Origin: a virus
Length of the DNA: 22,464 nt
Strand: one strand, 5' to 3'
IMG/VR virus record: IMGVR_UViG_3300008216_002762
Coordinates: 1-22,464 of that record
Shown here: positions 601 to 15,990 of the stretch, one piece after another
Numbering within the stretch: position 1 is the first letter of the stretch
How the letters are laid out: every line of letters starts with the position of its first letter
Notes under the pieces: generated by a model
What the model was told of the DNA's origin: nothing
The model's input: only the letters and a program-made list of their open reading frames with translations
The model's database searches: none
Program-made: the position numbers and the translations under genes

Positions 601-635
601 CATTAACAGGGCTAACACAACACGAAGGGAGAGTC

Positions 636-1409
636 ATGTATTACCTACTAAAGGGAACCCCACAAGGTGTCCATGCGGTAGCCCGTAGCCTTAGAAGCGA
701 TGGGGTCTATCTAAGGAGTTACCCCGATGGCAGGGTCTATGCCAAGCTAGGCCGTAAACATTCTCGACTAGTCTCAAAACCAGACCCAGATCATGGTGTG
801 GTATTTAAGCGGGTCACGAAGGAAGAGGTAGGAGCACCCCTAAAAGTAGCGTCTAGCCCCATAGCCTACAACTGCAACCGCTGTGGGCAGCAGCAGCCTA
901 GCGTCACCAGCCTAGCCAACCATATACGAGAGGTACACCAAACCAATGAGAGGCCCTCTCCAGTAGTACAGGCTCCGATACCCGTATCTGCTGTTACGTC
1001 TAGCACCCTCTTTCAGGGTAGTCCCGCTAGCTTGTCTAGAGAGGTTGTTGGCAGACTAGCAACAGAGCTTAGGACTCAAGGGTGGAAGTGGAGGGCTATA
1101 GGGGAGAAGCTAGGCTACCCCTACACTACCATTATTAGCTGGATACAGCGGTACGTCCCTGGTGGGATGCCTACGCCTCCACCTAATAGCCGACAACTAC
1201 AGAAGGGGGAGAGAAAGCCTCCTCGTATTACCTATAGTCCAACCCCCTCTACAGGCACACCTGAGCCACAGCGACAGCCCCGTCTGTTAGAGCTTACCCA
1301 TAAGCTCCAAGGCCTCTGCAGAGAGGTGGACTCCTGTGCAGAAGAGATCGCTAACGAGATACGACGGCTACAACAGGCCTTCTTTCTTGGGGAGGAAACT
1401 AATGGGTAA
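636..1409 (+). CDS. C2H2 zinc-finger plus helix-turn-helix DNA-binding protein
   Basis: A 257-residue protein with three recognisable parts. Residues 80-101 form a C2H2 zinc finger, C80-x2-C83-x12-H96-x4-H101, which is the classical spacing. Residues about 133-173 form a homeodomain-like helix-turn-helix of the resolvase or sigma region 4 type (WRAIGEKLGYPYTTIISWIQ). After a Pro-rich linker (about 175-215), residues 218-251 form an amphipathic helix that may be a coiled coil for oligomerisation. The N-terminal 60 residues are basic and unassigned. A role in sequence-specific DNA binding, as an early-gene regulator or origin binder, is inferred. The start at 636 has an SD (AAGGGAG) just upstream. 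The 3' end overlaps the next gene by 8 bases, indicating translational coupling. No catalytic motif is seen. Confidence 0.85.
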   Translation: MYYLLKGTPQGVHAVARSLRSDGVYLRSYPDGRVYAKLGRKHSRLVSKPDPDHGVVFKRVTKEEVGAPLKVASSPIAYNCNRCGQQQPSVTSLANHIREVHQTNERPSPVVQAPIPVSAVTSSTLFQGSPASLSREVVGRLATELRTQGWKWRAIGEKLGYPYTTIISWIQRYVPGGMPTPPPNSRQLQKGERKPPRITYSPTPSTGTPEPQRQPRLLELTHKLQGLCREVDSCAEEIANEIRRLQQAFFLGEETNG

Positions 1410-12180: not shown

Positions 12181-12528
12181 CTAGATTGGCTCAGAGATCG
12201 CATAGGCAGCATCCTGCCTACCACTACCCCGCTCATAGACAATGATGAGGGTTACGTCTGACCCATCATCAGAGATAATCTTAGCTCCCTGCTCAGAGTG
12301 CTTAAGGTATCCCCAGTTGGAGGCCCCCACTGCATGGCCGAAGCTGCTGGTAGGGGTTCCTGTGGGGTGCCAATGGACACTATCCCCTGCTGGGACAAAG
12401 AACCAGATGTTCCCTGCATTGGCTGGAACCGTACCCCCAGCACTCGCTATCGACTCGGCAGAAGAGCCCATAGCTAGGGCCTCGGCAGAGACAAAAGGGG
12501 CTCGGAACTTGAGCTTGCTATTTGCCAT
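12181..12528 (-). CDS. Small virion-type protein, unknown (115 aa)
   Basis: A 115-residue beta-rich protein (NIWFFVPAGDSVHWHPTG, then KIISDDGSDVTLIIVYERG). SD AAGGAG precedes the ATG at good spacing. The Ala/Gly/Ser-rich, strand-rich composition and place among capsid genes suggest a minor capsid, decoration or tail component. No recognised family, no membrane segment and no cysteines. Confidence 0.6.
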   Translation of the reverse strand: MANSKLKFRAPFVSAEALAMGSSAESIASAGGTVPANAGNIWFFVPAGDSVHWHPTGTPTSSFGHAVGASNWGYLKHSEQGAKIISDDGSDVTLIIVYERGSGRQDAAYAISEPI

Positions 12529-12941: not shown

Positions 12942-13283
12942 TTACTCACCGCTTAGGATGTCTTTCGTCACCACCCTATCATAAAAGGGCCTTAGCCAGA
13001 AAGGGGGCTTCTTTAGGACTCCCCTGCTTAGGCTATTGATCTCCATAACGTTATATCCTAAGAAGGTAGAGGACTTACCCTCCCAAGGGGCTACCTCTTT
13101 TACAGGTTCCTTAACTAGCTTCTCTGCCTTTAGGAGTCTCCACACTCGGTCTACGGTACCCAACCACTTCTTAACCGTCCAGTCTTCTCCTGCTATATGA
13201 AGGAGTTTCTTAGAACGGGTAAAGCCTATCTCTTGCCCCCCTATCTTAAAGCTGCGGAGGGAGTAGACATCGAAAGCAGGCAT
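12942..13283 (-). CDS. Unknown small basic protein (113 aa)
   Basis: A 113-residue basic protein with aromatic residues (DWTVKKWLGTVDRVWRLLK, then KKPPFWLRPFYDRVV). SD GAGGAG lies 7 bases before the ATG. DWTVKKWLGTVDRVWRLL could form a winged-helix-like element. It is not a recognised family. It sits between the decoration-protein gene and the zinc-finger-like gene, so a head or head-tail joining role is possible but unproven. Confidence 0.6.
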   Translation of the reverse strand: MPAFDVYSLRSFKIGGQEIGFTRSKKLLHIAGEDWTVKKWLGTVDRVWRLLKAEKLVKEPVKEVAPWEGKSSTFLGYNVMEINSLSRGVLKKPPFWLRPFYDRVVTKDILSGE

Positions 13284-13398
13284 TAAGCATCTCCTCTACC
13301 TGTATCAGGGAGTGGCCCCTGAGGGCTTTAGCGTCTTTCAACGTTTCCAGTACCCCCAGAGGCTCTCTTTTGGGAGGGTCTACACTCCCCTTATGCAA
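13246..13398 (-). CDS. Possible 50-residue small ORF in the gap
   Basis: A frame from TTG 13398 to TAA 13246 would give a 50-residue helical peptide (for example LETLKDAKALRGHSLIQVEE). It fills most of the 145-base gap between genes and overlaps the next gene by 38 bases in another frame. An AAGGAG lies 17 bases before the TTG, too far for normal use, and partly in a hairpin. Weak evidence; the reading could be chance. Confidence 0.25.
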   Translation of the reverse strand: MHKGSVDPPKREPLGVLETLKDAKALRGHSLIQVEEMLNACFRCLLPPQL

Positions 13399-13428: not shown

Positions 13429-14253
13429 CTACACTACTAACAGGACAACCTCTAGTCCTAGCATGATGGGGTCGTCCCCGCCAGTGCCTTCCGCAGCCTT
13501 CTTGACGGCTACCCCAATATAGTTACCTGGAGCGATGAGGCCAGTAGCATTGAAGCCAGCAGACACATCAGCCACAGCCAGGTCGTTTGCTGCTACCGCT
13601 AGGGACGCAGCAGAGATACCATCAGTGGTTGCAGAGGTAGTCTCATCATCCACCCCGCCCGAAGCGTCTATGGTGTAGGTGTCAGAGGTATCAAGGAGCG
13701 TCCCTGTCCCACACCACCAGAGGTAGGCAATCGTAGCGGATGTGCTCACACAGTTCTGGGGTACCATGAAGCCACACCCGACCTCAGCATTATCATCGTC
13801 CAGTCCCAGGCCCATAAAGTCATTGTCCCTGTCCTGGGGAGCGACGTGGGTCGTATATGGGAACTGCATGGAGATGGTGACTTCACGAGGTATCTGTATC
13901 GTAGCACGAACCTCAGACGTGGAGATGGCAAACCCTACCACCTGCATAAGGTTCTCTGCCCCAGTAGGGCGAGTTGTTGTGATCTCTCCTGCGGTAGTGG
14001 AGAGGTAGAAACTAGTCCCCTGGGTATAGGGGGCATCAATGTCCACAATGACACAGGAGGTGCAGAGGGTACCAGTCTCCGTGGTCTTAAAGGTGTTGGT
14101 AGCAATAGCCTCTGCAAACTTGGTGTTGTCGTCAGCATCGGCAAGCTCCCAGTCCGTACCATCGAAGTAGAGCATATCCCCTGCTACTACATCAGTGGAG
14201 CCTATCGTAGCGGTAAAGACGTTCCTAGCCTGCCTGACGTAAGGATCAGCCAT
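13429..14253 (-). CDS. Capsid decoration / head-fibre-like protein
   Basis: A 274-residue beta-rich, acidic protein directly after the major capsid gene. The N-terminal about 120 residues (ARNVFTATIGSTDVVAGD, then YTQGTSFYLSTTAGEITTT and VVGFAISTSEVRATIQI) have the layout of phage decoration proteins of the DUF2190 type: a GD strand, a Gly-Thr-x-Tyr-Leu turn and a final I-Q-I strand. The C-terminal about 150 residues are a second Gly/Ala/Thr-rich beta domain ending MLGLEVVLLVV. It probably binds the capsid shell outside, stabilising it or displaying a fibre. SD AAGGAG lies 8 bases before the ATG and is partly inside a hairpin (14264-14282). Confidence 0.65.
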   Translation of the reverse strand: MADPYVRQARNVFTATIGSTDVVAGDMLYFDGTDWELADADDNTKFAEAIATNTFKTTETGTLCTSCVIVDIDAPYTQGTSFYLSTTAGEITTTRPTGAENLMQVVGFAISTSEVRATIQIPREVTISMQFPYTTHVAPQDRDNDFMGLGLDDDNAEVGCGFMVPQNCVSTSATIAYLWWCGTGTLLDTSDTYTIDASGGVDDETTSATTDGISAASLAVAANDLAVADVSAGFNATGLIAPGNYIGVAVKKAAEGTGGDDPIMLGLEVVLLVV

Positions 14254-14300: not shown

Positions 14301-15248
14301 TTAGGCTGCTGAATCTATGCCACCTAGAGCCGCAAACATCTTAGCGGAGTAGGCGACTACTTGGAGATACACTACCATCCGATAGAGGTTCTCGTTCTTG
14401 TTCTCTTTGATACCAATGTCCTGAATGTCAGGGCCTAACATATCACCGTTGTGGATGACAGTAAGTCCCTGCTTCTCCCTCCCGAATTTCACAGCAAAGA
14501 TAGAGGTTGCCGTGCTGGAAGGCCAGGTGCTTGTATCGTTGTACTGCTCGGAGTTACTGATCCAGTCTGTGATAACAATCGGGATGCCATTGTACCGACG
14601 TACCTGGTGACCGAATAACTCAATGTTATCCATGACAACACCAGAGCCAGAAGCACGGGAGAGGGAGGTCACCTTCCGTCTCATCGTCTTGTTCATGATG
14701 AGGGCATCAGGAAGACCACTCTCTACCTGGTCTATCATAGCGTCTAGTCGGTCAACGGTAAGCTCTGTCTCAGCAGCCCCAGGGCCATCTACATTACCAT
14801 CATCCATAGCCATCATACGGGTCTCTGAACGGGCTAGGGAATCAAGCCCCTCATACTCTGTAGAGGTAGCTTCAGGCTCCCCAACAATGAAAAGCTGGGA
14901 GAGCTTACGAGACAGGCCTTTGGACATCAGGCTAAAGAGCACGGCCTTTTGGTCTTGGACGTTGCTCCGAGTCTGCATGGCATAACGGTCAAGGGGGGAC
15001 TGTACCCCAACAATGGTCAGGGTTGTGGTTTTCTTGGTGAAGGTAGGCTCGGTGTCATTCCAAGTGTCACCTACTGCGTGGGTGGCAGCAGTTGGAAGAG
15101 CGTTCTCTCTGTTGTAGACGAGAGAGTTCCCGTTGTGGCTCTCAAACTGGAGCCAGGGCATCAACTCGTCATGGGTGATAACGTTCTCGAAGACACCAGC
15201 GATTACCTTATCATTAGCTAATTTAGCATATTCACTAAGTGTGGGAAT
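14301..15248 (-). CDS. HK97-like major capsid protein, probable AUU start
   Basis: A 315-residue protein if started at AUU 15248-15246. The C-terminal half shows the phage major capsid pattern: RRYNGIPIVITDWIS, then IFAVKFGREKQGLTV, a Gly/Asp segment, and a final LQVVAYSAKMFAALGGI. The N-terminal frame is open back to an in-frame TAG at 15266-15264. It contains no ATG, GTG or TTG until TTG 15164 and ATG 15161, neither with an SD. AGGAGG (15265-15260) lies 11 bases before the AUU. Starting there gives MPTLSEYAKLANDKVIAG at the N-terminus, a capsid-like helical arm. The later starts would remove this arm. It follows the scaffold gene by 25 bases and precedes the decoration gene, the usual head order. 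The family call is strong. The start is inferred. Confidence 0.85.
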   Translation of the reverse strand: MPTLSEYAKLANDKVIAGVFENVITHDELMPWLQFESHNGNSLVYNRENALPTAATHAVGDTWNDTEPTFTKKTTTLTIVGVQSPLDRYAMQTRSNVQDQKAVLFSLMSKGLSRKLSQLFIVGEPEATSTEYEGLDSLARSETRMMAMDDGNVDGPGAAETELTVDRLDAMIDQVESGLPDALIMNKTMRRKVTSLSRASGSGVVMDNIELFGHQVRRYNGIPIVITDWISNSEQYNDTSTWPSSTATSIFAVKFGREKQGLTVIHNGDMLGPDIQDIGIKENKNENLYRMVVYLQVVAYSAKMFAALGGIDSAA

Positions 15249-15265
15249 CTTATCTGTTTCCTCCT
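15246..15265 (-). promoter_or_regulatory. SD and non-standard AUU start of the capsid gene
   Basis: AGGAGG at 15265-15260, then an 11-base spacer, then ATT at 15248-15246. No ATG, GTG or TTG in the capsid frame lies within 80 bases of this SD. The site decides the start of the capsid protein. Confidence 0.55.
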
Positions 15266-15273
15266 AAGGAATA

Positions 15274-15933
15274 TTAGGTTCCTTCTTGGTCTCTAAGTCC
15301 TGCCGCAATCTTATCTGTGGCTGAGAGGTCTCGCCAGGACTCGTTAGGGACACCTGAGGTGGAACCTGGGTTAGCCGTCTTAGTAGGAGGAGGGCCAACA
15401 GTTGTCGGGGGGTTAATGGAATCTTGGGGGGCTGTTGGAAGGTCATCGTTTGTACGTCCCTGCTCCATCTTCCACTCATAGGCCTTCAGGCGCATATCCT
15501 TAGGGTCGTCTAGGCCTACAAACTCTGCTTCTGGCACTCCCATTGACTGGGCTAACTCCTTGGCTGTCACCGCTAACTCACGAGAGAGAAGTTTGTCGGA
15601 GGTTTCCTCTGCCTGCCGTAGGGCCTCTCTGACCTTTCTGGCATTAGCTTTAGCCTCCTCATCGTCTCCGTAGAGATCAGCATCTTTAGAGGTATTTCTT
15701 AGCTCCTCTATGTCCCTCTTAACGTTTCCTATCTGGCTACGAAGGTCTCCTATGGTAGCATCCCTTTGACCTAAAAGCTTTCGGGTTACCTTTAGCTCTG
15801 TCTCTAAGGCTTCGGTCTTCCTAGTAGTCTCTAGCAGGGCTTCCTGGTTAGTAGGCCTACTACGCCTAGACTTAGAGTCGCTGCTGGAGCCTGTCTGCTC
15901 GGTTGCTGGGCCTGCCTTAGTGTCTTCTGCCAT
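15274..15933 (-). CDS. Probable capsid scaffold protein
   Basis: A 219-residue, highly charged, helical protein directly before the major capsid gene, the standard place of scaffold. Residues about 30-125 are predicted coiled coil by eye (RKTEALETELKVTRKLLGQR, then IGDLRSQIGNVKRDIEEL and ARKVREALRQAEETSDKL). The C-terminal part is Pro/Thr-rich and flexible, ending LSATDKIAAGLRDQEGT, a short helix of the kind that contacts capsid. ATG 15933 is chosen: SD GGGAGG lies 4 bases before it, whereas an upstream TTG at 15990 would lie inside the candidate promoter. No protease motif is seen. Confidence 0.75.
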   Translation of the reverse strand: MAEDTKAGPATEQTGSSSDSKSRRSRPTNQEALLETTRKTEALETELKVTRKLLGQRDATIGDLRSQIGNVKRDIEELRNTSKDADLYGDDEEAKANARKVREALRQAEETSDKLLSRELAVTAKELAQSMGVPEAEFVGLDDPKDMRLKAYEWKMEQGRTNDDLPTAPQDSINPPTTVGPPPTKTANPGSTSGVPNESWRDLSATDKIAAGLRDQEGT

Positions 15934-15960
15934 CTTACCTCCCTGAAGAACTCTAGTAGG

Positions 15961-15990
15961 AGAGTAGAGAATAGCTAGTAGGGTTGTCAA
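15961..15990 (-). promoter_or_regulatory. Candidate sigma-70-type promoter for the capsid operon
   Basis: On the minus strand TTGACA (15990-15985) is a perfect -35, followed by an 18-base spacer and TACTCT (15966-15961), a weak -10 matching 3 of 6. Transcription would begin near 15954, just before the scaffold SD. The terminator at 16022-16059 lies immediately upstream, so a new transcript start is expected here. Confidence 0.4.

Follow-up and report, generated by a model that had tools for sequence, protein, structure and literature searches.

A probable AUU start codon on the major capsid gene of a metagenomic phage, and isoleucine-codon starts among the structural genes of its clade

AUU and AUC starts are on record for a few cellular genes, most of them autoregulated or expressed at a low level. 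The gene encoding IF3, infC, starts with AUU in Escherichia coli, AUC in Streptomyces and AUA in Staphylococcus aureus (PMC5472188, PMC13009471). IF3 discriminates against such starts, as established in E. coli and Streptomyces (PMC5472188). The pcnB gene of E. coli, as far as its citation in PMC13009471 goes, is a single gene with an AUU start that limits its expression. S. aureus has further non-canonical isoleucine starts, AUU at cvfC1 and AUA at ccpN, and output from its AUU and AUA sites is about 10% of that from AUG in poor medium (PMC13009471). In sigR of Streptomyces the start is GUC, and repression by IF3 has been shown by experiment (PMC5472188). The preliminary description of the DNA discussed here gave infC as the known case; that stands, but it is incomplete, since pcnB and cvfC1 belong beside it (PMC13009471). 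Switches from an ancestral AUG to AUU appear only once in 61,358 in one reconstruction, a lower bound because annotation rarely allows AUU (PMC5622118). Our literature search for AUU or ATT starts, in which coverage of subscription journals was mostly absent, found no phage capsid or structural gene. Isoleucine-codon starts are already known from infC, pcnB, cvfC1 and ccpN; what is unusual here is their repeated use in the virion-structure block of one phage clade, the major capsid gene included.

The window, by which we mean the whole stretch analysed, is an entire virus record of 22,464 bases whose ends are not closed. On its minus strand lies a gene for the major capsid protein (14301..15248), 315 amino acids long when read from an ATT codon at 15246..15248. 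The leader, read along the minus strand, runs from AGGAGG (15265-15260) through an 11-base spacer, AAACAGATAAG, to ATT (15248-15246), and the codons that follow are CCC ACA CTT (P-T-L), from which the protein runs P-T-L-S-E-Y-A-K-L. The Shine-Dalgarno (SD) sequence at 15260..15265 pairs with the anti-SD at -10.2 kcal/mol, and its spacer is longer than the 5-8 bases of most relatives. An in-frame TAG (15264..15266), read directly and by script, closes the frame upstream. The first canonical codons in frame, together at 15159..15164, are TTG at 15164-15162 (residue 29) and ATG at 15161-15159 (residue 30). A scripted recheck placed the in-frame stop at -18, found no canonical codon upstream and again put the first one at residue 29. 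The layout given in the preliminary description, from TAG to AGGAGG to ATT with no ATG, GTG or TTG before residue 29, is thus correct to the base, as is its remark that a standard gene caller would lose 28-29 N-terminal residues.

The assignment as a major capsid protein, made beforehand from sequence features, gains support from both profile and structure. The protein matches PHROG 212, major head protein, over its whole length (residues 2-314, E=1.9e-46), and its AlphaFold model (mean pLDDT 71.7) has an HK97-type fold: Foldseek retrieved family 2 encapsulins and HK97 heads at E values of 4e-16 to 1e-10, the encapsulins, not the phage heads, coming first. The Pfam SrpI-like family also scores above its cut-off. 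No nucleotide-level relative was found among GenBank phages.

The preceding gene (15274..15990, minus strand), a putative scaffold by position alone, has no Pfam or PHROG match and a probable ATG at residue 20 of its listed frame, after GGAGGGAAA. The following gene (gene 2; 13429..14253, minus strand) has no Pfam match, and the third gene surveyed in this block (gene 3) lies at 12181..12528 on the same strand; both start with ATG here. ARAGORN found no phage tRNA that might read ATT, either in the window or in the scanned stretches of five related contigs, and the window holds no Rfam element. A cluster of SNPs at 13077-13302, mostly inside a small gene (12942-13283), separates the window from the near-identical contigs L002, L004 and L005; it resembles the trace of recombination or of a rapidly evolving gene.

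How does this locus compare with the described systems? Like infC, the capsid gene has a clear SD and no ATG, GTG or TTG close by, as for SD-driven initiation at an isoleucine codon. Its product is a major head protein and not IF3, which excludes infC itself; no self-feedback is expected of a phage capsid, and its relatives mostly use ATG, whereas infC is cellular, is autoregulated by its own product and keeps its odd codon across bacteria. With cvfC1 and ccpN it shares a non-canonical isoleucine start under strong SD pairing, but those encode small or regulatory proteins whose starts are conserved among relatives. Like sigR, it combines a non-canonical start with a product that has to be kept in balance with a neighbour's, although the sigR codon is GUC and that gene is regulatory. 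The pcnB product is a low-level cellular enzyme, as against a high-copy virion protein here. That a high-copy protein should come from a start giving about 10% of AUG (S. aureus reporters, PMC13009471) is counter-intuitive, and it counts, like the long spacer, against the AUU reading.

The capsid family nevertheless points to this codon. In about 60 related capsids (46-75% identical), translation starts at the codon aligned with ATT or within 1-2 residues of it, nearly always at ATG, and the shared N-terminus is M-P-T-L-S-E-Y-A-K-L. The alignment holds from the ATT onward, and the in-frame codons upstream are without evident homology. A subgroup beginning MADALTEW, together with L157, starts one or two residues earlier. 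Even the distant copies, on contigs of Chloroflexi and other metagenome-assembled genomes (MAGs), begin at the same place with the pattern M-x-x-T-L-x-E-x-x-K-L. The window therefore carries, at the homologous start position, a codon other than ATG, GTG or TTG with no canonical codon near. That is more than chance: the ATT sits in the family's start-codon column, beneath an SD of -10.2 kcal/mol. With the family column, the pairing and the six overlapping contigs described below, the AUU start proposed at the outset is strongly supported, and we consider it very probably real.

The odd codon is not conserved among capsid orthologues, the nearest of which use ATG or TTG. TTG occurs in L028 and GTG in L045 and L047, and among the 63 capsids listed ATT is found outside the window's own lineage only in L031 (the same as L116; contig 3300003690_000028), whose capsid is 71% identical. 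The PHROG 212 head proteins examined thus resemble the window's capsid in sequence, length and fold, but apart from L031 they start with ATG, GTG or TTG. In L031 the homologous ATT stands six bases after AAAGGAG; a GTG lies in frame 57 bases upstream, but inside the preceding HNH gene. That gene, an HNH_3 endonuclease at L031:2504-2989, stands between the putative scaffold and the capsid, and its TAA overlaps the capsid SD (TAAAGGAG). The two AUU capsids are not sisters in a maximum-likelihood tree, so L031 is apparently a second, non-sister virus with this start, though the base of the clade is poorly separated and a single origin possible.

Two more cases lie elsewhere in the structural block. 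A survey of 223 non-redundant conserved starts in the clade gave 161 ATG, 10 GTG and 9 TTG. Most of the remainder were alignment offsets with a canonical codon adjoining; off-by-one and shadow-frame hits, numerous in the first-pass surveys, were removed by visual inspection. Four isoleucine starts are clear (4/223): the two capsid ATTs, an ATC at gene 2 of L008 and an ATC at gene 3 of L045. The former (L068; G002, contig 2811995110_000251, 11040-11861, minus strand), whose homologues begin MADPYVRQAR with ATG, has an in-frame stop at -9 and its next canonical codon at residue 70. The latter (L085; G016, contig 3300008217_002969, 1520-1864, minus strand), the homologue of window 12181-12528, has a stop at -6, its next canonical codon at residue 20 and an SD of -12.1 kcal/mol. 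A weaker ATT candidate is found in G009 (contig 3300009620_000084; L079, frame 622-990, minus strand; homologues begin MPEETFYIKQNDT), with an SD of -10.7 kcal/mol and, ten codons upstream, a TTG. Inspection left no CTG, ATA or ACG start. SD pairing is stronger at the four clear cases than at the ATG starts, whose median is -7.3 kcal/mol (Mann-Whitney p=0.016, n=4), in agreement with a published account of weak starts being compensated by their SDs (PMC5622118).

Hosts can be approached through the capsid's nearest cellular matches, which are mostly Chloroflexota MAGs, many bearing the name Dehalococcoidia, and are 31-48% identical to it across the part that matches. Other phyla appear too, and these matches hint, weakly, at Dehalococcoidia within the Chloroflexota as the host class. 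In Dehalococcoidia-class loci (L260-L289), infC starts at ATA, ATT or ATC in about 22 of 25 genomes with a readable N-terminus, at a conserved position with a strong SD in front. If this is the host class, then, its ribosomes would initiate at isoleucine codons, and autocontrol of IF3 is probably present, judging by those genes. The str operon of the same class has no isoleucine codon at any of 90 starts with a canonical column. Its S12 gene (L225-L259) starts with ATG in 10 of 24 loci, TTG in 9 and GTG in 5; TTG or GTG in 14 of 24 is unusual for so highly expressed a ribosomal protein gene.

How would such a start work? AGGAGG would position the 30S subunit at the capsid AUU, where the initiator fMet-tRNA (anticodon CAU) would be accepted despite the mismatch at the third position, presumably incorporating fMet, and the product would be the complete capsid of 315 residues, N-arm included. 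AUU being inherently weak and discriminated against by IF3, the stronger SD pairing would compensate in part, so that the start is tolerated. Such a start would yield less capsid than AUG does and would respond to IF3; reduced, SD-compensated, IF3-sensitive initiation is the likely consequence of the AUU start. We put a probability of nearly 0.9 (0.87) on capsid translation that is AUU-initiated, SD-compensated, weaker and IF3-sensitive, as lineage-specific tuning or drift. SD-buffered tuning or drift of structural genes, lineage by lineage, is the best-supported account, because the odd codon is sporadic and the gene that carries it depends on the phage. With ATG or TTG in the closest relatives, there is no support for a conserved scaffold:capsid switch. 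More capsid than scaffold is normally required, moreover, so that weakening the capsid start would push the balance the wrong way for a simple ratio-setter.

The most durable alternative is that AUU and AUC were selected, either to gate translation by IF3 and free ribosomes or to set a capsid:scaffold ratio. We think this improbable, though it deserves a hearing. All four clear cases in the one clade are AUU or AUC and lie in the structural gene block, the possible host class has an IF3 gene with an isoleucine start, and sigR is a precedent: its non-canonical start, under repression by IF3, fixes the proportion of SigR to RsrA (PMC5472188). The starts are not conserved, however: nearest relatives have ATG or TTG and the affected gene differs between phages. 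A weak capsid start, moreover, cuts the protein needed in the largest amount. Nor do the numbers settle matters. A comparable survey of 28 capsid-bearing MAG contigs outside the clade gave 0/89 near-cognate starts, and 4/223 against 0/89 and the 0/90 of the str operon is, with such small numbers, suggestive of enrichment but not proof. It is a shade less probable still that the clade repeatedly places virion-structure genes under IF3-discriminated isoleucine starts, coupling their translation to the IF3 and ribosome state of the host; if true, capsid assembly would be under an IF3-responsive control that gene callers cannot see.

Translation from the TTG or ATG at 15164 and 15161, with the part upstream untranslated, is far less probable. 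Both codons are canonical and in frame, but SD pairing there is just -1.8 and -2.5 kcal/mol, as against the value at ATT, and M30 is not conserved. Then there are the 28 residues that would be lost (15165..15248). Alignment with capsid homologues, proposed as a check in the preliminary description, finds them conserved as protein and the relatives starting at the ATT column. Changes in residues 2-28 relative to those homologues fall mainly at third codon positions: the stretch evolves as coding sequence. In the AlphaFold model residues 4-26 are a helix (residues 1-10 at low pLDDT), so the 28 residues are predicted to form an N-arm helix, which would go with them.

The AAG just before the ATT (15251-15249) is a poorer candidate yet. 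It is also one base from AUG and stands 8 bases after AGGAGG, but capsid homology begins one codon later, at ATT, and in the other cases the codon before the isoleucine start is ACC, AAC or GAC. The related idea of a frameshift fusion is impossible, because translation of the preceding gene ends at 15276-15274, before the capsid-frame TAG at 15266-15264 is reached.

ATT differs from ATG by a single substitution, and this is a metagenome assembly, so a sequencing or assembly error at one base had been the main alternative at the outset. It is now very unlikely. The capsid region is also covered, at 99.8-99.9% identity, by six further IMG/VR contigs from as many data sets, and all carry ATT; a scan of the viral collection with the exact start context and a free third base (ATN) hit these six and no others. 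Elsewhere the contigs vary, both relative to the window and among themselves, and because their SNP patterns differ we treat them as independent, though some of the data sets may share one sampling campaign. All seven contigs, window included, agree on ATT, and L031, a second virus, has the same codon. L031, L008 and L045 are each represented by one contig at the odd codon, and base error is therefore excluded less firmly for them than for the window. That the gene is a degenerating capsid copy, deprived of its start codon by substitution, is just as implausible, this being the single capsid match in the whole record, with a frame intact for 315 codons and identical in the six other contigs, mostly synonymous differences from relatives and its SD kept.

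AUU initiation of the capsid gene, in our preferred reading as tuning or drift, has consequences of two kinds. Gene callers that accept only ATG, GTG and TTG shorten the window's capsid by 28 residues and the gene 2 product of L008 by about 70, to the detriment of structure prediction and capsid-based classification. For the biology, repeated AUU and AUC codons at virion genes, a high-copy capsid among them, challenge the view that these starts are only for weakly expressed genes. IF3 control of phage structural genes is now directly testable, and phages of this clade may make their isoleucine-started structural proteins at reduced or adjustable levels.
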